A DNA stretch of 64,000 nt. It comes from Anaerolineaceae bacterium (GTDB taxonomy: Bacteria > Chloroflexota > Anaerolineae > Anaerolineales > Anaerolineaceae). Of this stretch, positions 11,946 to 38,420 are shown one piece after another. The stretch covers positions 1,054,001 to 1,118,000 of the forward strand of contig JARKPB010000008.1 of the NCBI GenBank assembly GCA_029975475.1. Direction: 5' to 3'. How positions within the stretch are numbered: the stretch's first letter is position 1; every line of letters starts with the position of its first letter. The position numbers and the translations under genes are program-made. The notes beneath the pieces are model-generated. The model worked only from the letters and a program-made list of their open reading frames with translations, searched no databases and was not told where the DNA came from.

Positions 11946-14900
11946 ATGACGGTATCGGACCAGACCTATTCGGAAGAGCCAAAGCCAAAAGGGCGATCCA
12001 GTCTTGTTCGTCTGGTGGTTATCGTCATGCTGGCGATGGCGCTGTTCCCGATTCTTATCATCGGCGCGGCAGCCTACGGGCGCTCAAATGAAGTTGTGCG
12101 CGAGCAGACTCAGGTTGAGCTCACCCAGGCCGGAAACAATATTTACAGGCAGCTGCTCACATTAAAAACTGCGCAGGACAAAGCCCTTGAAGCGATTCGC
12201 CAGCAAACCGGCTTTATCCCGGATGTCAAATTGGTGATTTCCGAAGCGCGCTATGATCCAAATTTCACCATCGCTTTCCTGCGGCTAAAGGGGTATTTTC
12301 AGAACAATTCCGTGGGTCCGCTTGAACCGATCTTTGACAAAATTTTTCTGGTTGATACCAACGGAAAAGTCCATGTCACAACCGACTTAACTTTCATCGA
12401 TTCCAACGTCAGCGAAGACCCGCTTTTTCAAAAGCTGCTCTCCGAAGATCAATCGGCCATCTGGTTTAATCCGGCTCCTTATTATCCCAACCGTCTGGCG
12501 ATCGCTACCAGTCAGGCCGTGGTAAACGAAAATGGTTCGAGGATCGCGACCCTGGTCGGGATTGCGGTTCCCCGGTTGCCGGTTAACCTTCTGGCGACTT
12601 TTTCCATCTTCTCGCCCAACGCGCGCGGGTATTTTTTCACCGCGAACAACCAGATGGTTACCGCGGATAAAGAGAGTCTGCAGGCGATCCAGATATCCGC
12701 GCAGCCCGATCAGAAAGAAAAATTGCTCAACCGGATTCAATCTTACCCGGAGGGCGGAACCGAGCAATTTGATTCTTATAACGGAAAACCGGTACTGGCA
12801 TATCTGAAATGGTATCAGGATCTGAACGCGGGGCTGGTCATCGAAATCCCGGCTGATGAAGTCGTCGCCCAGGTTCAGATCTTCACACCGTACAACACCA
12901 TTCTGCTGGCGATCCTCCTGTTTATCTCCGGTCTGATTGTGTATCTTGCTGGCATCCAGCTGGTCAACCCGATTAACCAGCTGTCTCAAAAAGCGCTGGC
13001 ATTCGCATCGGGAGATTTTAGCCAGCGCGCAGATGAAAGCCGCAAAGACGAAATTGGGTTACTGGCCCAGTCGTTCAATAAAATGGTCGAAGAAATCTCG
13101 ACTCTCTACCGTTCGATGGAACAGAAAGTTGAAGACCGCACCCTGCAGATGCGCACCGCCTCTGAAATTGCGCAGGCTGCGATTTCTTCCACCAATCGGG
13201 AAGACATTCTTTACCGCACGGTTCAGCTCCTTACCGAACGATTTGATTTTGATTACGCCGCAATTTATTTGCTGGATGAAACCGGCACATCCCTTGTATT
13301 GAAAGGCGCCAGCCAGAAAGGCGAAGAAGAAACATCCTTCCGTGAGCTGCGGCTGCCGTTGATTTCTCAGAATATCCTCACCTGGGTGGCGGCCAACAAT
13401 AAGACCCGCATCGTCAGCGACCTGTCTGATGAAAGCGGTAACCTTGACCACCTAATTCCAGGGGCAAAGTCAGAACTGGCTGTGCCAATTATTCTGGAAG
13501 ACCAGCTGCTGGGTGTGCTGGATATTCAATCCTCACGGCCGGCCAGTTTTGACGCGGATACCGCCGGTGTTTTTCGCGCTCTGACCAGCCAGGTCGCTGT
13601 CGGTTTGCGCAACGTGGACACCCTCGAATCAACCGAGATCAACCTGCAGGAAACCACCCTGCTCTACCGGGCGAGCCGACAAATCACGCAGTCAAAAGAT
13701 GAAATTGAAATCGCAGAAATCCTTGCGGCAACCCTGTCGCAGACTCCCTACGTCAGCTTCCTGCTGGCGATCGAACCGGATCACCTGCGGTTGTTAACCC
13801 TCACAGACAGCCGCGGCGGGAAGAGCGACAGTGCTTATAAAGGTATTCGCCTTCCTCTGCAAAAGGGCAGCACGCATCTGGAAGAAGGCGCGATCACCAT
13901 TATCAATAACCTCAAAGCCCCTTCGGAATTCGATAATCTATTATCATTTTTTGACCGCCGCGGCTGCACTTCAGCAGCCTTGATCCCGATCCTGGAGGGC
14001 GGCCGCGCCGCCAAAATCCTGGCGCTGGGTTCACGTTCAGCCACACCGCTGAGTATGACCGCCTTACAGCCATTTGCCAACCTGGCAGAAGTCATCGGGA
14101 CAACGTACGAACGCTTTAATGTCTTGCGGACTCTGCGCCTGCGGTTAAACGAGCTTCAAACCCTTGCCTCCGTATCAGAGGCGATTTCATCACAAACCGA
14201 TTTGCTGGCTTTGTACCAGACCCTGCATCACAAAATTCAAGAAGCGGTGGGCGGCGAGGTCGGATTTGTCCTGGCAACCTATAATGCCGCTGAGAATATG
14301 GTAGATATCCCGTACATATATGAAGGCGGCGAGGTATCCCGGGTGGCTCCCTTCCCGCTGGGCGAGGGGTTGACCTCCTATGTCATCCGCGAATGTAAAC
14401 CCCTGCTGTTAAGTGGAGACATTGAACGGTCAGCAGCTGACCTGGGCGTTAAGATCGTTGGACAACCCGCCCGGTCCTGGCTGGGAATACCGCTGATGGT
14501 CGGCGGCAGTGTCATTGGCGCATTGGTGATCCAAGATGCCGAACAGGAAGACCGCTTTGGACAGGCGGAACTGGATCTGCTAAACACGCTCGCGCCCCAA
14601 ATCGCGACTTCAATTCGAAATGCCCAGCTGCTCGAAGAAATGCAGAAAGCGCTGTCGGCCTACGACCAGGAACGCTTCTTGCTCAACTCGCTCATGGATA
14701 ACACGCCGGACCAGATTTACTTCAAAGATCAAACCGGGACTTATCTGCGCGTCAGCAATTCGATGGTCAATGCCCTCGGCCTTAACTCACCGGCTGACAT
14801 TATCAACCACAACGATTATGAGCTGTTTGGCGAAGAGGCTGGAGAAGCATCCTATCAGGAGCTTGAATACCTGCTCCAACAGGGCGAACCGAAAGAAGAA

Positions 14901-16259
14901 GTGGTGGAAACCGTTTCAGAAGATGGACAGACCACTTTCTGGAATCAAGTCACTCAAATCCCGCTGTTTACCGAAGACGAACAGCCATACGGTATCCTGG
15001 GCATTCAACGAGACATCACCGGTTTGAAGATCGCCGAAAATATTGCCCAGCAGCGCGCCCAGCAGGTCCGCACAGCCGCGGAAATCGCCCGCGACACTTC
15101 CGGCACGCTTGACCTTTCGGAACTGCTGCAAAAATCCGTCAATCTGGTGCGCGAACGATACGGTTTCTACCACGCCTCAGTCTTCCTTCTGGACGCCATC
15201 GGCGAGTACGCGGTCCTTGAAGAATCAACCGGCGAAGCAGGCGCCCGAATGAAAGGCGCAGGCCATAAGCTGGCGGTCGGTTCTCAATCCATCGTCGGTC
15301 AAACCACCGCGACCGGTGTTCCGCTGGTGGTCAACGATGTCCGCCAGGACCCGACCTACTATCCCAACCCGCTGCTGCCGGAGACGCGTTCAGAGGCTGC
15401 GATTCCGCTCAAGGTTGGCGATCAGATTATCGGCGCGCTGGATGTCCAGAGCCGCAGGGTCAACGCTTTTAGCGAAGAGGACATCAGCATTCTGCAAATT
15501 CTCGCGGACCAGGTCGCAGTCGCGGTCACCAACGCCAACCTCTTTACGCGCACTCAGGAACAAATTTCCAAACACCGCATGCTCCACCAGATTACTTCAG
15601 CAGCCTCGTCATCCGATACCGTCCAGGAAGCCCTGGAAAAAGCCGTCCACGGGCTGCACCTGGCGCTGGGGAACGACCGCATCGGCCTGTTCATTGCCCG
15701 ACCGGATGGGTTATTAGAGATGAGGTACCACGCCGGGTATATTGAGCTGGGAGAGGAACCGATCACCGTTCAACCCGGTGAAGGAATCGTCGGCCAGGTG
15801 GCACTCAACCGCCGCGCGATGCTGGTCAGGGACAGCCAGGCTGAACCGCAGTACATTCCAATTGACCCCAACGTTCGCTCGGAGCTGGCTGTTCCGGTGG
15901 TGTACCGCGACGAACTCATCGGTGTGCTTAATCTGGAATCGGTCGAACCCGCTGCCTACGACGAAAGCGATACTGAAATTATGACCTCGCTGGTAGCCAA
16001 CCTCGCCTCGGTTCTCTCTAACCTCCAGTTGCTGGGGCAGATTCGCCAGCAGGTTGAACGCCAGCGCCAGATCTTCGAAATAACCAGTAAGATCCGTCAA
16101 TCCGTGGATATTCAAACCATTCTGGAAACTTCGGCCAGCGAACTGGCAAAAGCATTAAAAGCGCGGCGGGCAGCCATTCAGGTGACCACCGACATCATCG
16201 AAAAACCGATGACCTCCGATTTAAGCGGCAAAAATAACGGTAAGGAGCGGCTATCATGA
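11946..16259 (+). CDS. membrane multi-GAF/PAS sensor without kinase domain
   Basis: A 1437-residue sensor. Domain order by inspection: membrane segment 20-43; Cache-like outer domain 44-315; membrane segment 317-340; HAMP 341-392; GAF about 410-560; degenerate GAF about 575-722; GAF about 735-893; PAS about 905-1035; GAF about 1050-1200; GAF about 1210-1365; then only the first helix and strand of another GAF (1372-1412) before the end. GAF hallmarks such as RSEAAIPLKVGDQIIGALDVQS are clear. No HisKA, HATPase, GGDEF or methyl-accepting domain exists, so it cannot signal by a known catalytic output. It overlaps the next gene by four bases. It probably binds small ligands and passes the signal to a partner in the block. 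Confidence 0.88.
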   Translation: MTVSDQTYSEEPKPKGRSSLVRLVVIVMLAMALFPILIIGAAAYGRSNEVVREQTQVELTQAGNNIYRQLLTLKTAQDKALEAIRQQTGFIPDVKLVISEARYDPNFTIAFLRLKGYFQNNSVGPLEPIFDKIFLVDTNGKVHVTTDLTFIDSNVSEDPLFQKLLSEDQSAIWFNPAPYYPNRLAIATSQAVVNENGSRIATLVGIAVPRLPVNLLATFSIFSPNARGYFFTANNQMVTADKESLQAIQISAQPDQKEKLLNRIQSYPEGGTEQFDSYNGKPVLAYLKWYQDLNAGLVIEIPADEVVAQVQIFTPYNTILLAILLFISGLIVYLAGIQLVNPINQLSQKALAFASGDFSQRADESRKDEIGLLAQSFNKMVEEISTLYRSMEQKVEDRTLQMRTASEIAQAAISSTNREDILYRTVQLLTERFDFDYAAIYLLDETGTSLVLKGASQKGEEETSFRELRLPLISQNILTWVAANNKTRIVSDLSDESGNLDHLIPGAKSELAVPIILEDQLLGVLDIQSSRPASFDADTAGVFRALTSQVAVGLRNVDTLESTEINLQETTLLYRASRQITQSKDEIEIAEILAATLSQTPYVSFLLAIEPDHLRLLTLTDSRGGKSDSAYKGIRLPLQKGSTHLEEGAITIINNLKAPSEFDNLLSFFDRRGCTSAALIPILEGGRAAKILALGSRSATPLSMTALQPFANLAEVIGTTYERFNVLRTLRLRLNELQTLASVSEAISSQTDLLALYQTLHHKIQEAVGGEVGFVLATYNAAENMVDIPYIYEGGEVSRVAPFPLGEGLTSYVIRECKPLLLSGDIERSAADLGVKIVGQPARSWLGIPLMVGGSVIGALVIQDAEQEDRFGQAELDLLNTLAPQIATSIRNAQLLEEMQKALSAYDQERFLLNSLMDNTPDQIYFKDQTGTYLRVSNSMVNALGLNSPADIINHNDYELFGEEAGEASYQELEYLLQQGEPKEEVVETVSEDGQTTFWNQVTQIPLFTEDEQPYGILGIQRDITGLKIAENIAQQRAQQVRTAAEIARDTSGTLDLSELLQKSVNLVRERYGFYHASVFLLDAIGEYAVLEESTGEAGARMKGAGHKLAVGSQSIVGQTTATGVPLVVNDVRQDPTYYPNPLLPETRSEAAIPLKVGDQIIGALDVQSRRVNAFSEEDISILQILADQVAVAVTNANLFTRTQEQISKHRMLHQITSAASSSDTVQEALEKAVHGLHLALGNDRIGLFIARPDGLLEMRYHAGYIELGEEPITVQPGEGIVGQVALNRRAMLVRDSQAEPQYIPIDPNVRSELAVPVVYRDELIGVLNLESVEPAAYDESDTEIMTSLVANLASVLSNLQLLGQIRQQVERQRQIFEITSKIRQSVDIQTILETSASELAKALKARRAAIQVTTDIIEKPMTSDLSGKNNGKERLS

Positions 16260-17947
16260 ACTTCTTCCGCAGCCTTAATCCAAACGTTCCCCCGCCAGAG
16301 ATCGCTTCCAAAGGCGAATTGATGATCTGGCGCGAGCGCATCCTGCAATATTTTGGGTTTATCGGCCTGGGAATCGCGGCCTTTGCCTATGTCGCCTTGC
16401 TCGCGCCGGCGCTCAGCACCAATCAACGCGGGTTCATCATTCCATACGCGGTCATCATGGCATTTTTCGCCCTGCTGGTTTTCCTGAGACGGCTGCCGTA
16501 TGGTTTGCGCGCAAACGCGCTGCTGATCGCCACCCTGGCTGCTGCGGTGGTCTCGTTTATCCAGTTTGGTCTGTCAGGAAACGGCCGCACACTTTTACTG
16601 ACCTATACCGTTCTGGCCGCGGCTTTGCTGGGGGTGAACGGCGGTTTGAACTCGCTGGGGGTCAGCATGATCGTCATGTTTATCTTTGGCTTTGGCATGA
16701 CCACCGGCTTCATCCCCAAACCCAGTGTCGAAGTCATGGCGAATTCTGGTTTTGCCCGCGACTGGCTGCTGGGCAGCGCTTTTGTTGCCATCGGAGCCAT
16801 TCTCGGTATTACCTCTACCGGCGTGCTGATTCGCGGTCTTCAGACCAGCCTGACCAAAGGGCAGGATTTGACCAAAGACCTCGAAAACCAGCGCTCAATT
16901 CTGGAACTGCGCGTCTTTCAGCGCACGCAGGACCTGCAGCGCCGTCTGGTTCAAATCCGTACAGCCGCAGAGATTTCGCAATCCATCATCAGCGTGCTTG
17001 ACCCTGAAACCCTGCTTCAACAGGTGGCCGATCTGGTGAAAGAACGGTTCGACCTGTATTATGTCGGCGTGTTCCTGCTGGATGAAAAAGGCGAAAACGC
17101 GGTACTGCACGCCGGTACCGGAGAGGCCGGCCAAAAAATGTTGGAAGCCGGCCACTACCTTTCCGTTGGGGGTACTTCCATGATTGGCTGGGCGATCTCG
17201 AACCGCCGCGCCAGAATCGCCCTGGATGTCGGTAAGGATGCGGTGCGTTTTAACAACCCTTATTTACCGCTCACCCGCTCGGAATTGGCTCTGCCCATTA
17301 TCAGCCGTACAGAGGCTATCGGCGCGTTGACCATTCAGTCGGAAAAAGAGAACGCGTTCGATGAAGATGATATTTTGGTGCTGCAAGGGATCGCCGACAG
17401 CCTTGCCACCGCGCTGGAAAACGCGCGTTTGTTCAACCAGGCTGAAAAGAACCTGGAAGAGATTTCCGCCCTCAATCAGGCTTACCTGTATGAATCCTGG
17501 AACCAGATTTTGCAGACATACGGCCCCATTTCTTACAGTTTTACCAATCGAGATGTGGTCAAACGGGTGCAAAATCCAGCGGCAGGTAAATACCCGCTGC
17601 GTCTGCGCAATCAAACCATCGGTTACCTTTCAATCGAAGGCTCGGAAGAGACCTTCAGCGAGGCTGACCTGGCATTGATTGAAGCTGTCACTTCGCAGAC
17701 AGCCCTGGCGCTCGAAAATGCCCGCCTCCTGGAGGAAAGCCAGCGCCGCGCCTCTCAGGAACAGATGATTAACAAACTGAGCGAAGAATTTTCAAAGGCT
17801 GGCGACATCGAAGCCATTCTAAGGACGGCGATCTCAGAATTAAAGCAGCTTCCGTCTGTGAGCGAAGTCAGCGTGCAGATGATCCCACCTGAAGATGAGG
17901 TCGAAACCATCGTTTCTGCCGGTGGGAACGGGAGGAATAAAGCATGA
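16256..17947 (+). CDS. six-TM GAF-domain membrane sensor
   Basis: A 563-residue protein with about six membrane segments (residues 32-192), a coiled coil (about 195-232) and one full GAF domain (about 236-392). A short degenerate GAF-like module (about 395-492) carries the pattern LNQAYLYESW. A half GAF ends the protein (about 503-545). The membrane part is not a domain I recognise; it resembles an integral-membrane sensing module. No enzymatic output is present. The start overlaps the previous stop by four bases (ATGA) and the end overlaps the next gene likewise, so the genes are translationally coupled. Close paralogue of the following gene in both layout and sequence. Confidence 0.87.
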   Translation: MNFFRSLNPNVPPPEIASKGELMIWRERILQYFGFIGLGIAAFAYVALLAPALSTNQRGFIIPYAVIMAFFALLVFLRRLPYGLRANALLIATLAAAVVSFIQFGLSGNGRTLLLTYTVLAAALLGVNGGLNSLGVSMIVMFIFGFGMTTGFIPKPSVEVMANSGFARDWLLGSAFVAIGAILGITSTGVLIRGLQTSLTKGQDLTKDLENQRSILELRVFQRTQDLQRRLVQIRTAAEISQSIISVLDPETLLQQVADLVKERFDLYYVGVFLLDEKGENAVLHAGTGEAGQKMLEAGHYLSVGGTSMIGWAISNRRARIALDVGKDAVRFNNPYLPLTRSELALPIISRTEAIGALTIQSEKENAFDEDDILVLQGIADSLATALENARLFNQAEKNLEEISALNQAYLYESWNQILQTYGPISYSFTNRDVVKRVQNPAAGKYPLRLRNQTIGYLSIEGSEETFSEADLALIEAVTSQTALALENARLLEESQRRASQEQMINKLSEEFSKAGDIEAILRTAISELKQLPSVSEVSVQMIPPEDEVETIVSAGGNGRNKA

Positions 17948-19665
17948 TCAGCCGCGAAAAAATCACTGAGCGATTGAAAGTTCCGCGCATCAATATGCCG
18001 GACGAAGTACGCGCCATTCGCGCGCGGATTATTCAATTTGTGTTGAATGCGGCTGCTTTAATTGGCGCACCGATATATTTTATCAACCTGTACACAGCCA
18101 TCTCGAACCGCAACATTATCGGAGCGGTCGTTTTCACCGTCAGTTATTTTGTGGTTGTCGCTCTGGCATTCGTTCGCTTCATCCCCTTCGAAGTCCGGGC
18201 GATGCTGACCGTATCCATCTTCATGCTGCTCGGGATCATCGAATCCATCCAGAACGGGCTTTCAGGCGGCGGGCGCAACATTTTACTGGCTTTTATTATT
18301 CTGGGCATCACCCTTATCAGCACCCGCGTGGGTATCGCAGCCTACATTATTGGGGTCATTACGCTGCTCGTTTCCGCGGTTGGGTTCTCAATGGGCTGGC
18401 TGGCTGTTCCGCCGATCGAAGTCAACGGCGGCTCAACCAACCCGCTGCAGTGGGCTTCAGCGATTTTGATGTTTTTGCTGCTTTCCTCCAGCGCAGCGGT
18501 TGCCCTGGCGACCTTACTGGGCGACTTAAACCGGATTTTGACCCGGCAGCAGGATTTGACCCAGCAGCTGCAGAGCGAGCGCGATCTGCTCGAGTCGCGC
18601 GTTGAAAGCCGTACAGCCGAGCTGCAGCGAAAAACTGCTCAGCTTGAAGCAGCCATGCGGACTGCGCGTGAAATCAGTATGATTCAGGATCCAGCCGTCT
18701 TGCTTCAGAACGCAGTGGATTTGATCCGCGAATATTTCAGTTTTTATCACGCCGGTATCTTCCTGGTGGATGAAAATAACGAATATGCGGTGCTCCGCGC
18801 TGCGACCGGAAAAGCGGGCGAGCAGATGATCGCTAACAAGCACCAGTTGAAAATTGGCATGGAAGGGATTGTCGGTTACGTGGTTTTTCGCGGTATTCCG
18901 CGCATTGCGCAGGAAGTCGAAGGCGACGCGGTTCACTTCAAGAACCCTTACCTGCCAGATACGCGTTCTGAAGTCGCCCTGCCGCTTCAGGTTGGCGGAA
19001 AGGTCATTGGCGCGCTGGATGTCCAAAGTGTTGAGGAAGGCGCCTTTCAGCAGGAAGATTTGCAGGTGCTGCAGTCCATCGCCGACCAACTGGCAGTGGC
19101 GATTGACAAAGCCCAGCTGGTCTCAAACCTGCAAGCCCAGATCAACCAGCTTGAGTCGGAATATCAGGCGTTTACGCGCCGATCCTGGCGGTATCACCTA
19201 AAGAAATCTTCCCGCCATTACGCGTTCCGGGTTGAGCAAAACCAACTGTTGACCGAATTCCCGATTCGACCAGAAGCCAGACGAGCCCTGGATCAGCATC
19301 AAATTATCCTGTCTACTTACGGCGAGGATGAGGAAGATAAGAAAGCCGCGCTGGCTGTCCCGATCCGGATGCGGGATGAGACCCTGGGTGTGATCAACCT
19401 GCGCTTTGATGCCCCATCCGTTCCAAAAGAGATTATTGATATGGTGGAAGTAACCACCAACCGCCTGGCGCTCGCGCTAGACAACGCCCGCCTGCTGGAA
19501 GACGTGCGCGAGCGCGCAGAACGAGAACGCCTGGTAACGGATATATCAGCCAGCGTCCGCGCCTCTACCGATATTGAAAAGATCTTAATGACCGCCGCGG
19601 AACAAATCGGGCAGAAGATGGGTGTCCGCGAGGTGCGCGTCCACTTAAAGAGTGAGAAATCATGA
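17944..19665 (+). CDS. six-TM GAF-domain membrane sensor, paralogue
   Basis: 573 residues with the same layout as its neighbour: about six membrane segments (residues 30-195), coiled coil (195-235), full GAF (about 238-392), a Trp-containing degenerate module (about 400-520, YQAFTRRSWRYH) and a terminal half GAF (about 528-568). The full GAF ends in SEVALPLQVGGKVIGALDVQS, typical of GAF beta strands. There is no kinase or other output domain. It overlaps the upstream gene by four bases. It most likely arose by tandem duplication and may form mixed oligomers with the other GAF proteins through the coiled coils; that is inference. Confidence 0.87.
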   Translation: MISREKITERLKVPRINMPDEVRAIRARIIQFVLNAAALIGAPIYFINLYTAISNRNIIGAVVFTVSYFVVVALAFVRFIPFEVRAMLTVSIFMLLGIIESIQNGLSGGGRNILLAFIILGITLISTRVGIAAYIIGVITLLVSAVGFSMGWLAVPPIEVNGGSTNPLQWASAILMFLLLSSSAAVALATLLGDLNRILTRQQDLTQQLQSERDLLESRVESRTAELQRKTAQLEAAMRTAREISMIQDPAVLLQNAVDLIREYFSFYHAGIFLVDENNEYAVLRAATGKAGEQMIANKHQLKIGMEGIVGYVVFRGIPRIAQEVEGDAVHFKNPYLPDTRSEVALPLQVGGKVIGALDVQSVEEGAFQQEDLQVLQSIADQLAVAIDKAQLVSNLQAQINQLESEYQAFTRRSWRYHLKKSSRHYAFRVEQNQLLTEFPIRPEARRALDQHQIILSTYGEDEEDKKAALAVPIRMRDETLGVINLRFDAPSVPKEIIDMVEVTTNRLALALDNARLLEDVRERAERERLVTDISASVRASTDIEKILMTAAEQIGQKMGVREVRVHLKSEKS

Positions 19666-19690
19666 GATGGATCATGGTGCCGGAGGGAAA

Positions 19691-22675
19691 ATGAGCCTTA
19701 CGCAAATTTCTGAGCCAGCTGGCGGATCCTTCACACCATCTACCGGGCGGATAGACCGCGATCGTTGGCTAACTTCGATTTCCGCGGTGCTCGGGATCAT
19801 CTCGCTAACTTTATTTATCATCCTGCTGTTCGCCACCATCCAGAATCCAATCTGGCAGATGTTTTTGCTGTCGGCGACATTTGCCACCTTATTTCTCACC
19901 TGCGCTTTCATTGGCACGCGCCTCTGGGCGGCATCTACGACGATCCGCGGAATCACCCTGATCGGGGTTGTATTTTTAGCGACCATGGTAGTCTCTACCA
20001 TCGTCCAGGACATCGGCATTCTGGTTTCGCTGATTGTGATCATCTTTACCATCATCATGGCCTCGACCGCCATGGCAAATCTCTACAGCGACCATATCAC
20101 CCTGGCCGGTCTGGTGGTAGCGATGATAAACGCCCTAACGGGCGTCCTGCTGCCGATTGATCAGGTTTCCTTCCCCGCCCTTACGCTGCTCACACCGGTC
20201 ATTCTGGCGGTCATCGTGATGATCTACATCGTCCTGATCGTGATTGAGTTCGTCTCGGCGACGATACGAATTAAATTGATCACAGTTTCACTGGCAATTG
20301 TTCTTTTCCCGCTGATTTTACTTTCATTCATTCAATCAGCCTTCCTCCAAAACGCGATTAGCGCCCAAAACCAGCAGGCTTTTCGGTTGGTCGGCGCGCA
20401 GGTAGCCCGCCGGGTGGATGATTTCATCAACGCCAACCTCACGCAATTGGAAAATCAGGCCGCTCTGCCGGTATATGCCCGCTATTTACAGCTGCCCAGC
20501 AATCAACGCAAAAACAGCCCTGAAGAAGCGGAAATTCGTTCCATTTTTACCTCGCTCGAAGCAGCTTCAACCAGTTACCGCCCCAGTTTCGCGATCTTGA
20601 ATTCATTTGGAATCAATATCTTTGATTCCAATCCCCTGTACCAGGGAAACCTGGAAGGTAACGCCCCTTATTTTTCGGAACCGGTACGAACAGGCAGAAC
20701 CTACTCTTCGCCGGTGGTATTTTCTTATAACGCGCCGTATATTTACTTCAGCACCCCGATCCGCAATGAGCGTTCTCAGATCATCGGCGTGCTGCGCATG
20801 CGCTATGACGCGCTGATCCTGCAGTCGCTCATGCAGGATTATGTCGGGATTATCGGCAGCCGATCCTACCCCGTTCTACTGGATGAAAACCTGATTCGGA
20901 TCGCCGACACCATCCGCCCCAACCTCCTTTACCGCAGCATGAAAACGCTGGATCAAAACACCGCGGCGCAGTTAACCGCTAACAAACAGGTTGACCCGGA
21001 TTTCAATCTGGCGGACCTGTCCAGCCCTCAGCCTGATGTTGTTGCCGCGATTGAAAATTTGACGATTACACCCTTTTTCAATACTGAATTTCATTCCGCC
21101 GGAAGCAAGCATACCGAGGCAGGAATTGTGGTGCGCACCAGTACAAAACCCTGGTATGTGTTGATCCTGCAGGAAACGACCGCGCAGGAATTAATCAGCC
21201 AGAATCAGCAAAAATTATCCACCGTAATCGCAGCGATCCTTGCTGGTATGGTTGGATTAATCACCGCGTTTTCATCCACGGTGTTCAGCCAGCCAATTCT
21301 AGATCTGGCGAACATCGCCCGCCGGGTTGCCGGCGGCGACCTGAGCGCCCGGGCGAAAATTCAAAGCGGTGATGAAGTTGGTGAACTGGGCACCACCTTT
21401 AACAGCATGACCACCCAGTTAAGCGAATTCATTACCGAACTGGAAGCCCGCGTTGAAGAGCGTACGCGAGAACTGGTGAAGCAGAACGAAGCGCTCATCT
21501 TCCGCTCGCGCCAGCTGCAAACCGTATCGGATGTTGCCCGCGGAGTCGCAACCGCGCAGGCGCTCGAATCCCTGCTGCTCTCCGTGACTCAGTTGATTAG
21601 CGAACGCTTCGGTTTCTACCACGTGGGTATTTTCCTCATTGATGAACGCAATGAATTCGCGGTCCTGCGGGCGGCAAACTCTGAAGGCGGCAGACGCATG
21701 CTCGCCCGACAGCACAAACTCAAAGTTGGACAGGTGGGTATTGTGGGTTATGTCACCGGCAAAGGTCAACCCCGCATCGCCACAGATGTTGGTGAGGACG
21801 CGGTATTCTTTAACAACCCGGATCTGCCGCTTACCCGCTCAGAAATGGCGCTGCCTTTACGCGCCGGCAACCTAGTCATTGGCGCGCTGGATGTGCAGAG
21901 CACCGAATCCAACGCTTTTCAGCCTGAAGATATCGAATTGTTCACCATTCTGGCCGACCAGGTGGCGATCGCGATTCAGAACAACCTCCTCTATGACGAA
22001 ACCCGCCGCGCGCTGGATGAAACCCAGCGCTTGTACCGGCAGTATTTGCAGCAGGAATGGGCTTCGGAACTGGCCGCGCGGCGAAAAACGCGCTTTGTTT
22101 ACTCGCAAATGGGCACAGCTCCGAGCGATCAGGATGTGCCTGAAATCAGCCGGGTGATTGAATACGGACAACTGTATATTGATTACCGGGAGGAAGAAAA
22201 CGAAGTCCGGTCGGTTCTGGCTCTGCCAATTAGCCTGCGCGGAGAAACCATCGGCGCCATTCTCATGCAGGAGAGCGCCGCGCAGAAACGAGAATGGAGC
22301 AGCGAGGAGATTCTTGCCGTTCAGAGCATCGCGGACCAGGTCGCTGTCGCGCTGGAAAACGCGCGTCTGTTTGAACAAACCGTCCGCCGCGCTGATCGAG
22401 AAAGAAAGGTGCTTGAAATTACCAGCAAGATCCGCTCTACCAACGATCCGCAAATGATGCTGCAGATCGCGGTCGAAGAATTGCAGCAGTCTTTGAAAGC
22501 CAGCCGGGCGCAAATATTACTGCAGATCCCTGAGGAATTATCCGGGGCGGTGGAGAACGGGAATAACGGTCATTTGCCTGAAGCTGAAATTTCCACAGCG
22601 TCAGCAGATACCGATGACGGAAAGACCCATGATGATGAAGACATCCCGTCTCCAGACCCAGACGTAAACAACTAG
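19691..22675 (+). CDS. membrane Cache-HAMP-GAF sensor without kinase domain
   Basis: About 994 residues. An N-terminal bundle of six or seven membrane segments (about residues 25-218) is followed by a Cache-like outer domain (about 220-500), another membrane segment, HAMP (about 528-582), coiled coil and a full GAF (about 615-770). Then come a Trp-containing degenerate module (about 778-892, YRQYLQQEWASEL) and a half GAF (about 902-944), with an acidic tail at the end. The frame opens at 19652 inside the preceding gene, but GGAGG four bases before the ATG at 19691 favours this start. It combines the multi-TM anchor of the two smaller paralogues with the Cache-HAMP arrangement of the 1437-residue protein. 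No catalytic output is present. Confidence 0.86.
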   Translation: MSLTQISEPAGGSFTPSTGRIDRDRWLTSISAVLGIISLTLFIILLFATIQNPIWQMFLLSATFATLFLTCAFIGTRLWAASTTIRGITLIGVVFLATMVVSTIVQDIGILVSLIVIIFTIIMASTAMANLYSDHITLAGLVVAMINALTGVLLPIDQVSFPALTLLTPVILAVIVMIYIVLIVIEFVSATIRIKLITVSLAIVLFPLILLSFIQSAFLQNAISAQNQQAFRLVGAQVARRVDDFINANLTQLENQAALPVYARYLQLPSNQRKNSPEEAEIRSIFTSLEAASTSYRPSFAILNSFGINIFDSNPLYQGNLEGNAPYFSEPVRTGRTYSSPVVFSYNAPYIYFSTPIRNERSQIIGVLRMRYDALILQSLMQDYVGIIGSRSYPVLLDENLIRIADTIRPNLLYRSMKTLDQNTAAQLTANKQVDPDFNLADLSSPQPDVVAAIENLTITPFFNTEFHSAGSKHTEAGIVVRTSTKPWYVLILQETTAQELISQNQQKLSTVIAAILAGMVGLITAFSSTVFSQPILDLANIARRVAGGDLSARAKIQSGDEVGELGTTFNSMTTQLSEFITELEARVEERTRELVKQNEALIFRSRQLQTVSDVARGVATAQALESLLLSVTQLISERFGFYHVGIFLIDERNEFAVLRAANSEGGRRMLARQHKLKVGQVGIVGYVTGKGQPRIATDVGEDAVFFNNPDLPLTRSEMALPLRAGNLVIGALDVQSTESNAFQPEDIELFTILADQVAIAIQNNLLYDETRRALDETQRLYRQYLQQEWASELAARRKTRFVYSQMGTAPSDQDVPEISRVIEYGQLYIDYREEENEVRSVLALPISLRGETIGAILMQESAAQKREWSSEEILAVQSIADQVAVALENARLFEQTVRRADRERKVLEITSKIRSTNDPQMMLQIAVEELQQSLKASRAQILLQIPEELSGAVENGNNGHLPEAEISTASADTDDGKTHDDEDIPSPDPDVNN

Positions 22676-22685: not shown

Positions 22686-23468
22686 ATGGCCTACGTAATT
22701 TCGATAGCCAATGAGAAGGGCGGAGTAGCCAAAACAACCACGACCGTTTCCCTGGGGGGAGCCATCGCTGAAGTTGGCCAACGTGTTCTGCTGATCGATC
22801 TGGATGCGCAGGCGAACATGAGCCTGGCGCTTGGATTTGAGCCCGGAAAAGTGGCGAACACGATCGTATCCGCTTTTCTGGAAAATAGACCGCTTTCAGC
22901 TCTCTGGCAGCCAAGTCAGGTTGAAAACCTGTCCGTGATCCCCTCGAATTCCGAGATGGGACTGGTGGAACGCATGCTGCCGACCCGGCCAGCTTATGAA
23001 GAGACCCTGCGGCGGGCGCTGCAGTCAGAGCCGATCCCGTTTGATTTCATTTTGATCGATTGTCCGCCGTTTTTAGGCGCGGTCACTTTTAACGCATTAA
23101 CCGCCTCAAATTTGTTAATTATGCCCACCCAGGCGGAATATTTTTCAATTTACGCCCTGCGCAATATGATGAGCCTGATTCGGCGAGTTCGAGCCAAAAG
23201 CAACCCGCGCTTGACCTACCGGCTGCTCTTAACCATGTTTGACCGCCGCAACCGCATTCACCGCACGATGAATGAGCAGCTGCATACAACTTTTGAATCG
23301 GGTGTGCTAACCAGCTTGATCGAAATTGATACCAAGCTGCGCGAAAGCCCAATCGCTGGTGTTCCAATTATGCTTCACGCGCCTAAGAGCCGTTCGTCCC
23401 TCCAGTACCGCGCTCTCGCCCAGGAGATTATAGATTATGTCAAAGAAACAGCTGCAGAACCGGCTTGA
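22686..23468 (+). CDS. ParA/MinD-family partitioning ATPase
   Basis: A 260-residue P-loop ATPase with the deviant Walker A motif NEKGGVAKTTTT near residue 9, switch region LLIDLDAQANMSLALG near 36 and Walker B region FILIDCPP near 120. Such proteins bind DNA or membrane in the ATP form and position plasmids, chromosomes, carboxysomes or chemoreceptor arrays. No parB gene or parS-like site is visible here. It overlaps the hybrid kinase gene by 32 bases and follows the GAF sensors by ten. It therefore probably belongs to the signalling system, perhaps placing the array in the cell, rather than to chromosome segregation. That role is inference. Confidence 0.88.
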   Translation: MAYVISIANEKGGVAKTTTTVSLGGAIAEVGQRVLLIDLDAQANMSLALGFEPGKVANTIVSAFLENRPLSALWQPSQVENLSVIPSNSEMGLVERMLPTRPAYEETLRRALQSEPIPFDFILIDCPPFLGAVTFNALTASNLLIMPTQAEYFSIYALRNMMSLIRRVRAKSNPRLTYRLLLTMFDRRNRIHRTMNEQLHTTFESGVLTSLIEIDTKLRESPIAGVPIMLHAPKSRSSLQYRALAQEIIDYVKETAAEPA

Positions 23469-26400
23469 AAACCTGTTCGTAACCTTAGAAGAACAGGTCC
23501 TCCCCCCGCCTGTCGCTGAAGCACCAGCGGCGCTTAGCTGGTCCTGGGAAGTCAACGCGCAGGGCATTTACACCCAGGTATCTCCCGAAGTCAGCGAAGC
23601 CCTGGGCTACCAGCCAGCGGAGTTCATCGGGAAACACTTTACGGATTTCAGCCTCCATCCTTCCTATGGTCCGAAAATCCAGAATTTGCTTGACCAGGAA
23701 TTGCTGCCCAACGAGATGGATGTCAGCCTGCGAAAAAGCGATGGGGAGTGGATTGGCGCCCGGCTGCACATCTTCCGGCAGCCAGGCAGCGACGGCTCAG
23801 CCGGTCTGCGCGGCTTTTTTCAGATCATTGATCAAGTCCCGTTTCAACCTGGCCCAGCGCCAGACAGCGCTGCCAGCCGGCAGCCGCTGCGCGCTGGCGG
23901 TCCGACGGTTCCAATTATCCAGTCCGCGACGGGCATCGCTTATGCCAACGGGAAATACATGCCCGCCCAACAGCTTTGGTCGCGGGCAGCGAAACGCGGT
24001 CTGGCGGCCAATGACCTAAGCATTCAGCAGGGCCACGCGAAAGAACCCGCCGCCATCGCGGTTCCGGTCAAGGTCCGCGAACAAACCGCAGGCATCCTGG
24101 AAATTGTGGATGACAACCGCTCCAGGGAATGGTCTGAGGATGACCGCCTGCTGGTCCAGGAAGTTGCCAACCAACTGGCGCTGGCCCTGGAAAATGCGCA
24201 GCTGTATGCCGCCGTCCAGCAGGAGCTGGGCGAAAGAATTCGCGCAGAACAGGAAATTTTGCAGCGTAACAAAGATCTGGCCAGCCTGAACCAGATTGGT
24301 CAGGAGCTTTCGCGGCTTACTGACACAGAGGAGATTTTTCGTCTGGTGTATTCCACGATTGGAAGCATCACCGATAACCGCAATCTGATCATCGCCCTGC
24401 AGGAGAAAAATTCCCCCCTGATCTCTTACCCGATTTATTGCGTGGATGGAAATCTGGAAGCGGTCGAGCCCACCCTGGCAGGAAACGGCCTGATCGAGTT
24501 CGCGCTCAAATCTACTGGAATCCTCTCGGTCAACAGCCGGGTTGAAGAAATCCTGCGTCGGGAAAATGTGTTAGAGCCAGCGCGGATCCCGCTGTCCCTG
24601 CTTGGGATCCCATTTACCATCGGCACGCGCGCGCGCGGTGTGGTGGTCATCCAGAACTTTGAGAAGGAAAACGCTTTTGAATCGCTTTCCGTCGATCTGA
24701 TTTCCACCATGATGGCGCAGGCCGCCACATCCCTGGAAAACGCTTACCTGTTTGCTGAAATTCGCTCCGCGCTTTCCACCCTTGAGACCAGAGAGCGCTA
24801 CCAGGCGAATGTCGCCCGCTCGGTAGCGGCGCTGACCCAGTCTGGCCTGAATGCGCTTCCGCTGGTACTTGAAAATCTGGCTGAAGCAGCCCAGGCGAAT
24901 CGGGTTTCTTTTGGACGCGCTGTTGAAGAAGACGGCAATGATTTCTGGCAAATTGAAGCCATCTATAAATCAGAGCGAAGCGAGGGTCATCTCCTCACCC
25001 TTCCGGTCCGCCTGATGATGGATGAATTTGCCGAGCTGTATCATCAAATTCATGAGACGGGCTTTTACAACGCTTCGGTTTTGAAAATGCCCAAGGGAGA
25101 GCGCGAGTTTTTCCTCTCCCTCAACACGGGTACTGTGCTGGCGCTGGCGATTTCCGGGGAACACGGAAAACCGCATATCCTTTTATTTGAAAATGCGCAG
25201 AAAGACCGCGAATGGCGGCGTGAGGAGATCAGCGTCTTACAGGTGGCCGCTGATGCGATCGCCAATACGCTGGTGCGCGAAGGACTGGTTGAGCAGATGC
25301 AATCCACGCTGGAAGAAACCGAAAATCTGTACGCAGCCAGCCATCGTCTGGCTCTGGCAGCCGATTTTCAGGAAATGGTGGCTGCCATCGCCACCGGTTT
25401 GCGCGTGGCGGCCATTAACCGCGGGATTCTTATCCTGTTTGATCACGATGCGGTCGGGAAGGTCAACCGTATGCACGTTGTTGCCAACTGGTATTCCGGT
25501 AAGGGAACACCGCCCCCGCCGGTTGGCACGGATTATATGCCGGCGATTTACCAGCAAATCTTCCTGGCTCCCAGCCCGGTGTTCATTGACAACCTGCAAG
25601 ACCCATCCGTGGAACGGGCTGTCAAGGACATCTTTTTACAGCAGCGCGTCGGCGCGATGGCTATTTTGCCGCTGTGGGCAGGGAAGCGCCAGCTCGGAGT
25701 GATGCTGCTGGAATCCGAAGAGCGGCATATCTTTACCAGCCGAGAGATCCGCTCCTTCCCTCCGCTGGTTGACCAGATGGCCACATCCGTGGATAACCTG
25801 CGGTTGTTTGAGCAGACCCAGCAAGCCCTGGCTGAAACAGAACAGCTTTATAAAATTACCAACGGCATTTCTCAGGCGCAAGACGCGCAGGACCTGGCCC
25901 GCCTGGTAGCCGAAAACATCCTGCCGCGCAACGCCGACCGCGTGACCCTCTTCGCGGTGACCAACGGTCCGGACGGGGAACCTTCGGATCTGGAAATAGT
26001 CGGCGGGGTTGATATTCGCGGAGAACAGGTGGTTCTTGGCGAGAAAATTCCCATCGCCAGTTTCCCCCTGGTGCGCTCGCTGGTCAGCGACACGCTCATG
26101 GTAGCGGATATCACCACCTATGAGGTTGATCAGGCCACGCGCCGAACCCTGCAGCAAATGAACATGAGCGCGATTTGTTTTGTGCCGCTGCGTTCAGGCG
26201 GGCGGCCAGTCGGTTTGCTCTTGATCTCATCCCGCCGGCCAGGCGAATTTGATAAAGACGAGATCCACCTCCTGCAAATTGTGGGTAACGGGATCACCGT
26301 CGCGCTCGAAAAACAAAAACTGCTGAGAGAAGCCCAGCGCCGCGCGCTTGAACTTCAAACGGCTGCCGAACTCGCCCGCGATACATCCAGCACCCTGGAG

Positions 26401-28413
26401 CTGGATGAACTGCTCAAACGCTTTGTCAATTCCGTCCGAGAGCGGTTTGGTTTCTATCATGTTTCGCTCTACCTGATGGATGAAAAAGGCAGCAACGCCG
26501 TTATCCGCGAAGCGACCGGAGACGCCGGCCGGGAGATGCGCGAAAAAGGGCACAAAGTCACCGTGGGCTCTCGCAGCGTGATTGGCAATGTGACCCAGCG
26601 CGGTTCCAGTGTCGTGGTGAATGATGTCAAAACTTCTCCGCTGTATACGCCGAACCCCTTGCTGCCGGAAGTTCGTTCAGAAATCGCCCTGCCCCTCAAA
26701 TCAGGCAAGAACATTATCGGCGTTCTGGATATTCAAAGCAATCAACGCAACGCATTTACCCAGGATGATGTGACCGTTCTTCAAATTCTGGCGGACCAGA
26801 TATCAATCGCGATTGAAAACGCGCGCGCTTATGAACTGTCGCAAAAAGCCTTTGAGGATATGAAAGAGGTGGACCGGATCAAGACGCAGTTCCTCGCCAA
26901 CATGTCGCACGAACTGCGTACACCTTTGAACTCGATTATTGGGTTCTCCAAGGTCATCCTCAAGGGTATTGACGGGCCAATCAATGACATCCAGAAACAG
27001 GACCTGACATCCATTTACAATTCCGGTCAACATCTGCTGAACCTGATCACAGATATTCTTGACCTGTCGAAACTGGAAGCGGGCAAGATGGAACTGCAGT
27101 TCACGGATGTGAATATTGGCGATCTGGTGACCAGCGTCATGTCAACCGCCGTTGGTTATGTGAAGGAAAAGCCGGTCAAGCTAATCCAGAATGTGCCCGC
27201 CAACCTGCCAATCGTCAAGGCCGACCAGACCCGCATCCGCCAGGTGCTCTTAAACTTCCTCTCGAACGCGGGCAAATTCACCGAAGAAGGCTCGATCACC
27301 GTCGAAGCGGAAGTGCTCAACCCGGACGGTAAAAAACCCGAAGTGATCGTAAAAGTGATTGATACCGGTCCGGGCATCGCCCAGCAGGATCAGGTCAAGC
27401 TTTTCCTGCCCTTCTCTCAGGTAGACGATTCCCCGACCCGCAAAACGGGGGGTACCGGGCTGGGTCTATCCATTTCACGGCAATTGATTGAAATGCACGG
27501 CGGACGGATTGGCCTGCTGTGGAGTGAACCGGGCAAAGGCAGCTGCTTCTATTTCACCCTGCCGTTGACAGTGATGAAAGAACAGGAATTGCCGCGTGAA
27601 GAGCCGATGCAGGAAAATGTGATTCTATGCATTGACGACGACCGCCAGGTGATCAGCCTGTATGAAAGGTACCTCGAACCGTATGGATATAACGTCGTCG
27701 CGCTGACCAATCCAAAAATGGCGGTCGAGCGGGCGCGCCAGCTGCAGCCGCTGGCCATCACCGTGGATGTGATGATGCCGGAAATGGACGGGTGGCAGGT
27801 GATGCACGAATTAAAGAACGATTATTTCACCCGCCAAATCCCGGTCATCGTCTGCAGCATTATGGAAGATCAGGAAAAAGGCTTCAGCCTTGGCGCGGCG
27901 GATTACCTGGTCAAACCATTTTTGCAGGAAGAATTGATCCTGGCGATTAACCGCCTGAATAAAGAAGGAAAAATTCAAGATATTCTGGTGATTGATGACA
28001 GCGAAGATGACCGCCGTCTGGCTCAAAAAATCCTTGAAAACGAAAAGCGCTTCCACGTCCGGCTGGCGAACAGCGGAAGAGAAGGATTGGAAGAAATAAA
28101 AACCGCCTGCCCGGACGCGGTCGTGCTGGACCTGTTCATGGAAGATATGGATGGTTTTCAGCTGCTGGAAGAGCTGCGCAGCGAAACACTGTACCGCAGC
28201 CTGCCGGTGATCATCCTCACCAGCGCGGATTTGACTCCGGAACAGCATAAAATGTTAAGCGAGTTCGGCAGTCAAATGCTGCAAAAAAGCGCATTGAAAG
28301 AAAAGGAATTGCTGCTCACCCTGAATGAAGCCCTGGCAAAGATTTCCCCATCCGCGCGGCGTCAGAATATGCACACCACCAAACCGCTGCCCGCAACGAA
28401 TTCTCTAAAATAA
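23437..28413 (+). CDS. multi-GAF hybrid histidine kinase with two receiver domains
   Basis: A soluble 1658-residue sensor kinase. Order: PAS (about 31-132), degenerate GAF (about 160-265), a series of full GAF domains (about 285-1125), HisKA with phospho-acceptor His1158 in ANMSHELRTPLNS, HATPase (about 1265-1380, DTGPGIAQQ and GGTGLGLSIS boxes), receiver 1 with Asp1444 and receiver 2 with Asp1565. No membrane segment is seen. The last GAF (FGFYHVSLYLMDEKG) is nearly identical in style to GAFs of the membrane sensors. This is the only protein of the block with kinase machinery, so it is the probable hub that reads the kinase-less GAF proteins. GGAG lies nine bases before the ATG, inside parA, showing coupling. 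Confidence 0.93.
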   Translation: MSKKQLQNRLENLFVTLEEQVLPPPVAEAPAALSWSWEVNAQGIYTQVSPEVSEALGYQPAEFIGKHFTDFSLHPSYGPKIQNLLDQELLPNEMDVSLRKSDGEWIGARLHIFRQPGSDGSAGLRGFFQIIDQVPFQPGPAPDSAASRQPLRAGGPTVPIIQSATGIAYANGKYMPAQQLWSRAAKRGLAANDLSIQQGHAKEPAAIAVPVKVREQTAGILEIVDDNRSREWSEDDRLLVQEVANQLALALENAQLYAAVQQELGERIRAEQEILQRNKDLASLNQIGQELSRLTDTEEIFRLVYSTIGSITDNRNLIIALQEKNSPLISYPIYCVDGNLEAVEPTLAGNGLIEFALKSTGILSVNSRVEEILRRENVLEPARIPLSLLGIPFTIGTRARGVVVIQNFEKENAFESLSVDLISTMMAQAATSLENAYLFAEIRSALSTLETRERYQANVARSVAALTQSGLNALPLVLENLAEAAQANRVSFGRAVEEDGNDFWQIEAIYKSERSEGHLLTLPVRLMMDEFAELYHQIHETGFYNASVLKMPKGEREFFLSLNTGTVLALAISGEHGKPHILLFENAQKDREWRREEISVLQVAADAIANTLVREGLVEQMQSTLEETENLYAASHRLALAADFQEMVAAIATGLRVAAINRGILILFDHDAVGKVNRMHVVANWYSGKGTPPPPVGTDYMPAIYQQIFLAPSPVFIDNLQDPSVERAVKDIFLQQRVGAMAILPLWAGKRQLGVMLLESEERHIFTSREIRSFPPLVDQMATSVDNLRLFEQTQQALAETEQLYKITNGISQAQDAQDLARLVAENILPRNADRVTLFAVTNGPDGEPSDLEIVGGVDIRGEQVVLGEKIPIASFPLVRSLVSDTLMVADITTYEVDQATRRTLQQMNMSAICFVPLRSGGRPVGLLLISSRRPGEFDKDEIHLLQIVGNGITVALEKQKLLREAQRRALELQTAAELARDTSSTLELDELLKRFVNSVRERFGFYHVSLYLMDEKGSNAVIREATGDAGREMREKGHKVTVGSRSVIGNVTQRGSSVVVNDVKTSPLYTPNPLLPEVRSEIALPLKSGKNIIGVLDIQSNQRNAFTQDDVTVLQILADQISIAIENARAYELSQKAFEDMKEVDRIKTQFLANMSHELRTPLNSIIGFSKVILKGIDGPINDIQKQDLTSIYNSGQHLLNLITDILDLSKLEAGKMELQFTDVNIGDLVTSVMSTAVGYVKEKPVKLIQNVPANLPIVKADQTRIRQVLLNFLSNAGKFTEEGSITVEAEVLNPDGKKPEVIVKVIDTGPGIAQQDQVKLFLPFSQVDDSPTRKTGGTGLGLSISRQLIEMHGGRIGLLWSEPGKGSCFYFTLPLTVMKEQELPREEPMQENVILCIDDDRQVISLYERYLEPYGYNVVALTNPKMAVERARQLQPLAITVDVMMPEMDGWQVMHELKNDYFTRQIPVIVCSIMEDQEKGFSLGAADYLVKPFLQEELILAINRLNKEGKIQDILVIDDSEDDRRLAQKILENEKRFHVRLANSGREGLEEIKTACPDAVVLDLFMEDMDGFQLLEELRSETLYRSLPVIILTSADLTPEQHKMLSEFGSQMLQKSALKEKELLLTLNEALAKISPSARRQNMHTTKPLPATNSLK

Positions 28414-28425: not shown

Positions 28426-30117
28426 ATGGCATCTCATTTTATTGTTGAATGTCTGGATTGCGGGCACAAAGCTGCCTTTATCCCCAGCAATCCCATTTGC
28501 CCGAAATGCGGCAGCCCCTGGCGCGAAGCCCGATATGATTTTGCCACGCTGGCTCACAGTCTGCCGCTGCAACTTCCAGGACGTCCTTTTGACATCTGGC
28601 GCTACCGCGAGCTGCTGCCTGTTCGCTCCCCCAGCCCGGATTTGTCGCTGGGAGAAGGCGGCACGCCGCTGATCCGGGCTGGAAATCTGGGGCTAATGCT
28701 GGGATGCCCAAATATTTTTATTAAAGACGAACGTCAGGGACCGACAGCGTCCTTCAAAGATCGACAGGCGGCCGTGACCATCGCGGCGATTAAAGAGGCC
28801 GGCATTACCGAAATGGTCGTCGCTTCCACTGGCAACGTGGCGATCGCGTATTCAGCCTACGCGGCGCGGGCGGGGATCAAATGCTGGGCGTTTCTCACCA
28901 GCCTGGTGCCGGCAGCGAAAATGCGCGAAGTCGCCCTTTACGGCACCCAGGTGATTAAAATCACCGGGTCATATGACCAGGCAAAGCAGATCGCGGCTGA
29001 ATTTGCTGCACAGCGCGGGTTCTATCTGGACGGCGGAGCAAAAAGCGTTCCCAACATCGAGGCGATGAAGACCATCGCCTTTGAAATCGCCGAACAAATG
29101 ACCGCGCTGTTGGGACCGCCGTCAATAAATAACGGGAATGGTCAAACCGCACCGTGGCGAACCCCGGACTGGTATATTCAGTCCGTCAGCGGTGGCATGG
29201 GACCGCTGGGGGTGATCAAGGGCTTCGCTGAGTTGAGCGCGATGGGTTTGATCGACAAAATTCCTAAATTTGGGATCATTCAGGCTGACGGGTGCGCCCC
29301 GATGGTCCACGCCTGGAAGCAGAAAAAAGACACCGCCCAGCCGATTCTTGCGCCAAACACCCTGATTCACACCCTTGCCACGGGCGACCCGGGCAGGACA
29401 TACACACTTCTCCATCAGCGCATCAGCCGGCTCACATCGGGAGCGTTTGAAGCGGTAACAGACGAAGAGGCTTTTCGAGCGATGCATTTTCTGGCAAAAA
29501 TGGAAGGGCTGTCCGTCGAGCCAGCCGCGGCCCTGGCTTTTGCCGGGCTGGTAAAACTGGTCCGCTCCGGAGAAATCAAACCCAACGAAACCGTTGTGGT
29601 CAATTGCACCGGGCACACGATGGCGATCGAACGCAACATCCTGGGTGAAGGGTGGGCCAAAGACTTGGATGTTGAAAAAGCCTCCTCGATGGAAGAATCG
29701 GCTGAAGACGGCCTGCTCGCCGCCCTGACGCATGTGGCGATTGACCGCTTCCCGCGCATCGCGATCGTGGATGACAACCCCGACGTTCGCCGGTTAATCC
29801 GCCGGATCCTGCAGGCGCAGGGAGATTACACCCTCTTCGAGGCGACCAACGGCCGCGAAGCGGTTGAACTGATCACCAATGAGCTGCCCAACCTGGTCAT
29901 CCTGGATTTGATGATGCCCGAACTGGACGGGTTTGGGGTCATGGACGCTCTGCAGAACAATCCGGATACCGCCGATATTCCCATCATTGTGGTAACCGCG
30001 AAGGAGCTGACCCCCGCGGAAAAGAACCGCTTGAAAGGACACATCCAGACCTTAATGCAAAAAGGCGATTTTATGAGCGATGACCTGATGGATGAGGTAA
30101 AGGCGCTGCTGGGCTGA
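28426..30117 (+). CDS. threonine-synthase-like PLP enzyme fused to a receiver domain
   Basis: 563 residues. Residues 1-35 form a zinc-ribbon-like start (CLDCG and CPKCG). Residues about 70-430 are a fold-type II PLP enzyme closest to threonine synthase: the PLP lysine is Lys111 in GPTASFKDRQ, followed by ASTGNVAIAYSAYAARAG and the phosphate loop SVSGGMGPLG. Residues about 445-563 are a complete receiver domain (RIAIVDDNPDVRR, phospho-acceptor Asp494 in VILDLMMPELDG, Thr in VVTAKE, Lys in LMQKGD). The gene begins 12 bases after the hybrid kinase, so phosphorylation of a metabolic enzyme by that kinase is plausible. The substrate could be O-phosphohomoserine, but another PLP reaction is possible. 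The fusion is continuous; no stop or frameshift separates the parts. Confidence 0.88.
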   Translation: MASHFIVECLDCGHKAAFIPSNPICPKCGSPWREARYDFATLAHSLPLQLPGRPFDIWRYRELLPVRSPSPDLSLGEGGTPLIRAGNLGLMLGCPNIFIKDERQGPTASFKDRQAAVTIAAIKEAGITEMVVASTGNVAIAYSAYAARAGIKCWAFLTSLVPAAKMREVALYGTQVIKITGSYDQAKQIAAEFAAQRGFYLDGGAKSVPNIEAMKTIAFEIAEQMTALLGPPSINNGNGQTAPWRTPDWYIQSVSGGMGPLGVIKGFAELSAMGLIDKIPKFGIIQADGCAPMVHAWKQKKDTAQPILAPNTLIHTLATGDPGRTYTLLHQRISRLTSGAFEAVTDEEAFRAMHFLAKMEGLSVEPAAALAFAGLVKLVRSGEIKPNETVVVNCTGHTMAIERNILGEGWAKDLDVEKASSMEESAEDGLLAALTHVAIDRFPRIAIVDDNPDVRRLIRRILQAQGDYTLFEATNGREAVELITNELPNLVILDLMMPELDGFGVMDALQNNPDTADIPIIVVTAKELTPAEKNRLKGHIQTLMQKGDFMSDDLMDEVKALLG

Positions 30118-30150: not shown

Positions 30151-31104
30151 ATGGAAAGAAACATGCGCGCCAAAGGAATCTCGGCTGCGCTGGCGTCAGC
30201 GGTCTTCCTGGGCGTCTCCCCGGTGTTTGGTAAACAGGCCATTCTTCTGGGGTTCTCTCCGTTAGCGGTTGTGACCATCCGAACCGGTCTTGCAGCGCTG
30301 CTGCTCGCCCTGGTAATCCTCATTATCAATCGAAAATTCTTTTATATTTTTCCGGTCGGCTTAATTGGCTGCGGTATCGCCGGATTAATCAACGGGTTGG
30401 GATCAATCCTGTATTACTCCGCCCTGGCCCGTCTGGATACCAGTGTGGCCCAGCTGCTGTACGCGTTTTACCCGCTTTTCGTGGGGATCTGGCTGTTCAT
30501 TGACCGCCAGCCGCTGAACCGAATCACCGTGCTCAGGCTGGCGATGGCTCTACCCGGAGCTTATTTGCTCATCAGCGCGGCGGAACATCGGATCGACTGG
30601 ATCGGCGCAGTGATGATGATTGGGTCAGCAGTGCTGTATGCGCTGCACCTGCTGGTCAATCAGCGTATTTTATGGGAAGCGCCAGCCCAAACTGTCACAT
30701 TCTATACCTTGCTTGCCATGACCGCTACCGTGGCGGTCGGCTACATCATTTTTGACCGCACGCTGCCGGCTGCGGGAACCTCATGGTGGCCGGTCACGGG
30801 GCTGGCATTAATCACCGCCTTTTCCCGCCTGTCGTTATTTATGGGCGTCAAACGGCTGGGAGGACTTCAGACCGCGATTATTGGTCTGAGCGAGTTGATT
30901 GTCACAATGGTACTGGCAAGAATTATTTTAGGGGATTCGCTGACCTTAATTCAGTGGATCGGGGCTTTCCTGATTGGAGCCAGCATCGTCCTGGTCGGTT
31001 TTGACAAACCCACACCCGAGAAGCGCCATTCAAAAGGCTTCCTTTCCTGGCTAAACCCGGCTTCGATAGACCCCAATGAAATCCCATGGCAGGTTCAAAA
31101 ATAA
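30151..31104 (+). CDS. EamA/DMT-family exporter
   Basis: A 317-residue membrane protein with about ten hydrophobic segments in two EamA repeats. Each repeat has the typical pattern, for example SPLAVVTIRTGLAALLLA in the first and LGDSLTLIQWIGAFLIG in the second. Members of this family export amino acids (RhtA exports threonine and homoserine) and other metabolites. AGGGAG six bases upstream supports the ATG. It lies 33 bases after the threonine-synthase/receiver fusion on the same strand, which makes an amino-acid substrate attractive but unproven. Confidence 0.87.
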   Translation: MERNMRAKGISAALASAVFLGVSPVFGKQAILLGFSPLAVVTIRTGLAALLLALVILIINRKFFYIFPVGLIGCGIAGLINGLGSILYYSALARLDTSVAQLLYAFYPLFVGIWLFIDRQPLNRITVLRLAMALPGAYLLISAAEHRIDWIGAVMMIGSAVLYALHLLVNQRILWEAPAQTVTFYTLLAMTATVAVGYIIFDRTLPAAGTSWWPVTGLALITAFSRLSLFMGVKRLGGLQTAIIGLSELIVTMVLARIILGDSLTLIQWIGAFLIGASIVLVGFDKPTPEKRHSKGFLSWLNPASIDPNEIPWQVQK

Positions 31105-31119
31105 ACCTGGCAGCAGGTT
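31096..31119 (-). terminator. terminator of the 31.1-33.5 kb two-component operon
   Basis: Minus-strand stem AACCTG/CAGGTT (31104-31109 and 31114-31119) with a four-base loop is followed by TATTTTTG. It overlaps the stop codons of both convergent genes. On the plus strand no T run follows at once. Confidence 0.45.
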
Positions 31120-38376: not shown

Positions 38377-38420
38377 GGTATATTCTACCTATTTCATCCA
38401 ATTAATGTTTGGAGCAGCAA

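Follow-up and report, generated by a model that had tools for sequence, protein, structure and literature searches.

The window, a 64,000-nucleotide stretch of the genome of an Anaerolineaceae bacterium, carries a single uninterrupted frame with an ATG start that encodes a 563-aa protein in which a PLP enzyme resembling threonine synthase is followed by a receiver domain (Table 1). Pfam assigns residues 74–396 to PALP (PF00291, E 4.5e-65) and residues 445–556 to Response_reg (PF00072, E 6e-20), and this domain search bears out the enzyme–receiver fusion that a sequence-only reading of the locus had described. The residues to which that reading had pointed are also in place: Lys111 lies within SFKDRQ, and the receiver has Asp494 at the position given, with T524 and K546 as its Thr and Lys. 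In the predicted model (mean pLDDT 83.7), enzyme and receiver are each folded, and the last 17 residues fall below a pLDDT of 50. The Cys4 N terminus, judged from its motif, would bind zinc.

As had also been read, a hybrid histidine kinase is encoded immediately upstream, its gene stopping 12 bases before the start codon of the fused gene; this kinase is intact, with an H-box (H1158), an N-box, G-boxes and two receivers. Further upstream, four GAF-rich sensor-like genes, in which no HisKA, HATPase or other output was found by Pfam, may feed this kinase, and are assigned to the system by neighbourhood only. Beyond the EamA transporter gene, on the opposite strand (31118-33473, −), lie genes for an OmpR-type regulator, which is found at the same position in 47 of 73 named loci, and a REC-histidine kinase. 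Farther on (36106-38945, +) is a series of genes for CBS-HATPase, DRTGG and PHP-domain proteins that leads into one for a thioredoxin-like [2Fe-2S] ferredoxin (38409); together they resemble a hydrogenase-linked set.

Table 1 Features of the fused gene and of the genes around it
Feature	Position	Strand	Basis
Four sensor-like genes (HAMP-GAFs-PAS; MASE11-GAF twice; dCache-HAMP-GAF)	11946..22675	+	Pfam
ParA/MinD-type ATPase	22686..23468	+	Pfam; two genes upstream of fused gene
Hybrid histidine kinase PAS-GAFs-HisKA-HATPase-REC-REC; H1158, D1444, D1565	23437..28413	+	Pfam, motifs
PLP enzyme (threonine-synthase-like)–receiver fusion, 563 aa	28426..30117	+	ORF and Pfam
Cys4 zinc-ribbon-like N terminus (C9, C12, C25, C28)	28450..28509	+	Motif, invariant in 109/109 homologues
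Fold-type II PLP catalytic domain, residues 74–396	28645..29613	+	Pfam and structural alignment of model
Lys111 codon, predicted Schiff-base lysine	28756..28758	+	Invariant, 109/109
Inter-domain linker, residues 397–444	29614..29757	+	Middle variable, helix 428–434 conserved
Receiver domain, residues 445–556	29758..30093	+	Pfam
Asp494 codon, predicted phospho-acceptor	29905..29907	+	Invariant, 109/109
Thr524 codon, receiver	29995..29997	+	Thr or Ser in 109/109
Lys546 codon, receiver	30061..30063	+	108/109, one gap
EamA (DMT) membrane transporter	30151..31104	+	Pfam PF00892, E 5.5e-25; directly downstream

Spread and conservation of the fusion

Full-length homologues with both domains occur in other genera at 57–76% identity, the range spanned by the 29 such matches that were aligned from 60 relatives of the source genome. 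A scan of named genomes, from which the best 80 loci were taken, found the fusion in cultured Longilinea, Bellilinea, Anaerolinea, Thermanaerothrix, Levilinea and Ornatilinea strains, and the labels of those 80 loci are nearly all Anaerolineae or Chloroflexi/Chloroflexota. When the PLP half alone served as query, 212 of 400 genomes of the order proved to hold the clade, as did 42 of 400 genomes drawn from the phylum, some of them outside the class. Among the matches listed from the order and phylum searches, each clade member sits in an open frame of at least 519 aa (the shortest, at 519 aa, is close to the end of a contig) and none is a lone enzyme; these searches were judged by frame length, and the receiver itself was verified in 109 proteins. 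Within the clade, the enzyme half appears from these sequences always to be fused. Many independent genomes with the full-length fusion rule out an assembly artefact or a frameshift; the sequence-only reading had allowed that the fusion might be absent in all relatives, and full-length homologues instead proved abundant, cultured strains included.

Conservation was assessed in a set of 109 non-identical fused proteins. K111 and the STGN loop (S134-T135-G136-N137) are invariant in all of them and, together with the PF00291 match, mark the fused protein as a fold-type II PLP (PALP) enzyme. D/E449, D450, D494 and T/S524 are likewise present in all 109 and K546 in 108, so that the receiver has the acidic pair, phospho-acceptor Asp, Thr/Ser and Lys of a response regulator; this conservation rules out a pseudogene or a degenerate receiver. 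In the tree, the enzyme domains of the fused proteins group together to the exclusion of stand-alone paralogues and of the solved threonine synthases, with a support of 0.935 at the node holding 108 of the 109 and of 0.595 at the node that adds the most divergent member (L161).

Three loci considered as unfused (L111, L149 and L169) were rejected as such because a longer antisense frame had masked them and their tblastn matches are nearly full length, and supposed plasmid-borne copies were set aside as matches to the enzyme half only, at ~34% identity. At one locus (L072:8897-10471, +), the first ~230 residues of the fused enzyme stand in frame with an EamA-like transporter, a joint that is probably a local deletion or misassembly. 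A literature search, with the main response-regulator output-domain reviews outside its coverage, found no threonine synthase–receiver fusion.

The enzyme half and its relation to threonine synthase

The nearest solved relatives of the enzyme half, by sequence and by predicted fold, are threonine synthases (Z 36–42 for the model against their structures), and the fused protein might accordingly be an ordinary member of that family, making threonine from O-phosphohomoserine with its flux tuned by receiver phosphorylation. A TIGR00260 score of 164.4, barely under the cut-off of 167.1, also favours this view, but the protein lies below the curated cut-offs of the threonine-synthase models: its best NCBIfam match, PRK08197/NF006050 (residues 7–400), scores 261.9 bits against a cut-off of 303, and the remaining threonine-synthase models listed are not passed either. 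The cysteate synthase model TIGR03844 gives 113.6 bits, its cut-off being 324.9. NSxNPxR and GNAGN, each found in four of four solved threonine synthases, occur in none of the 109 fused proteins, all of which carry SFKDRQ and SGGxG(P) together with an invariant G204. Residues T88, N154, S155, R160 and N188 of Thermus thermophilus ThrC (1v7c), which form the substrate-phosphate site, align in the 109 proteins with V/A, G, mostly A, mostly S/A/C and G, respectively; in the loop 154–160 the HMM and MAFFT alignments differ by one gap placement, the motif being missing in any register. Position 206 is Arg or Lys in 98 of the 109 and could provide a new anion contact.

Two stand-alone proteins of the source genome do pass a threonine-synthase cut-off, that of PRK08197 (L069) and that of TIGR00260 (L070), and the fused gene is therefore unneeded to explain threonine synthesis. 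The stand-alone paralogues that pass the PRK08197 cut-off do so at 581 and 578 bits and form a clade separate from the fused enzymes. Homoserine dehydrogenase is present in the same genome and no GHMP homoserine kinase scores above the TIGR00191 cut-off, so O-phosphohomoserine may come from another kinase family. In a paralogous fused clade, the fused gene is followed by a lone receiver gene and, at several loci (L066, L064, L167 and L168), by a stand-alone threonine-synthase-like gene, in most cases beyond the lone receiver gene; the one such protein scored, from L167, passes the PRK08197 cut-off. This adjacency counts in favour of an ordinary threonine synthase and hints at a link to threonine-family metabolism.

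With the phosphate-site motif and the GNAGN loop replaced in all 109 proteins, scores under the curated cut-offs and other proteins of the genome passing them, the activity on O-phosphohomoserine that the sequence-only reading had expected is not upheld, and we consider an ordinary threonine synthase quite unlikely. The name ‘threonine synthase’ is probably wrong for the fused enzyme, which is best read as a PLP subfamily related to threonine synthase, with intact PLP chemistry and a different substrate pocket. With such a pocket, O-phosphohomoserine held in the customary manner is an improbable substrate; the substrate is probably an amino acid or a derivative of one.

Candidate phosphorylation control

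Neighbourhood fractions come from 78 named loci that were picked as closest relatives, and describe the main clade. The gene that best matches the window kinase by BLAST, which is what counts here as the kinase, lies directly upstream on the same strand in all 77 of these loci with flank, and in the full set of 109 an H-box and a G2 motif occur together in 99 of the upstream genes. The median gap between kinase gene and fused gene is 20 bases; the kinase keeps its place in distant relatives, and is absent from the adjacent position in a few of them (L068, L164 and L166). An EamA gene lies directly downstream in 74 of 76 named loci, and in 56 of 67 the second gene upstream encodes a ParA-like ATPase.

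Since fusion, intact catalytic and phospho-acceptor residues and a conserved upstream hybrid kinase coincide, phosphorylation control is the natural reading, and we think it reasonably probable that the fused protein is a response regulator with a PLP metabolic enzyme as its output, its activity set by phosphorylation from the adjacent kinase. The kinase-less GAF proteins of the same gene string would possibly pass signals to the hybrid kinase, which is the probable phosphodonor and would phosphorylate Asp494 of the fused receiver. The conserved linker helix would then relay the receiver change to the PLP domain and switch its turnover of a small amino-acid-like substrate, and the EamA transporter may move the substrate or the product. 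Linker length is almost constant and the helix E-G-L-L-x-A-L (428–434) nearly invariant in the 109 proteins, a pattern more suggestive of a coupling element than of a loose tether.

Against a phosphorylation switch, the two receivers of the neighbouring kinase may themselves take the phosphoryl group, the three distant loci named above have no adjacent kinase, and the aromatic switch position is occupied by Leu or Val. Canonical receivers usually bear an aromatic residue at this position, three residues before the receiver Lys, although receivers vary there; in the fused proteins position 543 is Leu in 95 and Val in 11 of 109 (L543 in the window protein), and signalling to the output may therefore be non-standard. 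The missing aromatic residue and the frequent ParA-like gene would also suit a receiver that is a structural or docking module, tethering the enzyme to the kinase cluster, perhaps with the ParA-like protein positioning it, and providing no phosphorylation switch of catalysis. We regard this as very unlikely because the acidic pocket, Asp, Thr/Ser and Lys are under strong constraint that docking alone does not need.

That the fused gene nearly always lies beside hybrid kinase and sensor genes, and that main-clade neighbourhoods are without dedicated pathway genes, could also mean that the PLP domain works as a ligand-binding sensor or is a pseudoenzyme. An amino acid bound there as an aldimine would then decide whether the receiver takes up phosphate, and the protein would serve the phosphorelay as a sink or connector gated by a metabolite. 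However, the catalytic lysine, the PLP-binding loops and the pocket's own residues are invariant, as in a working enzyme, and a transporter gene is conserved alongside, which makes this an unlikely explanation. Under the preferred reading of an enzyme controlled by phosphorylation, a more elaborate circuit can be envisaged, although we think it improbable: a signal-gated synthase, with new PLP chemistry, would make a small amino-acid-derived compound that EamA exports and the GAF/PAS neighbours sense, the making of the signal itself being under phosphorylation control.

Comparison with known systems

As a rule, receivers control transcription or second-messenger outputs; in the fused protein, the direct target of the receiver seems to be a PLP enzyme of amino-acid metabolism, which suggests a metabolic reaction switched directly by an environmental signal. 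If true, this would offer a tractable system in which to study how a phosphorelay controls amino-acid metabolism, in an arrangement of fusion, kinase gene and transporter gene that is kept across a phylum. The fused PLP subfamily is likely to be labelled ‘threonine synthase’ from similarity alone.

The fused enzyme shares with ThrC (2d1f, 2zsj, 1uim/1v7c and 6cgq/6nmx) the fold, the Schiff-base lysine of SFKDR, the STGN loop and ~30–35% identity over the PLP domain, but differs in having SFKDRQ, the invariant G204 and SGGxG(P) in place of NSxNPxR and GNAGN, as well as an extra N-terminal Cys4 motif and a C-terminal receiver. PRK08197/NF006050, with its Cys4 N terminus, is the best-scoring NCBIfam model, yet the fused enzyme stays below its cut-off and in a clade apart from the stand-alone paralogues that pass it. 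Cysteate synthase (CapA2, 9k3c) is alike in PLP fold and N-terminal region (Z 40.5), whereas identity in the structural alignment is 23% and the solved protein has no receiver.

Receivers joined to enzymes are known from KaiC-REC, REC-glycosyltransferase, thioredoxin reductase and pyruvate phosphate dikinase, and both bacteria and archaea are reported to have metabolic enzymes that carry a receiver, with the archaeal fusions confined to a family or genus (PMC5847659). The present fusion resembles these enzyme-output regulators in placing a receiver, and with it environmental control, on an enzyme; however, none of those described there is a PLP enzyme and, in contrast to the archaeal cases, the fusion described here occurs in more than one class of its phylum and in most cases has a kinase gene beside it. 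A receiver on a metabolic enzyme is thus already known as a kind, and the PLP-enzyme version is new and unusually widespread.
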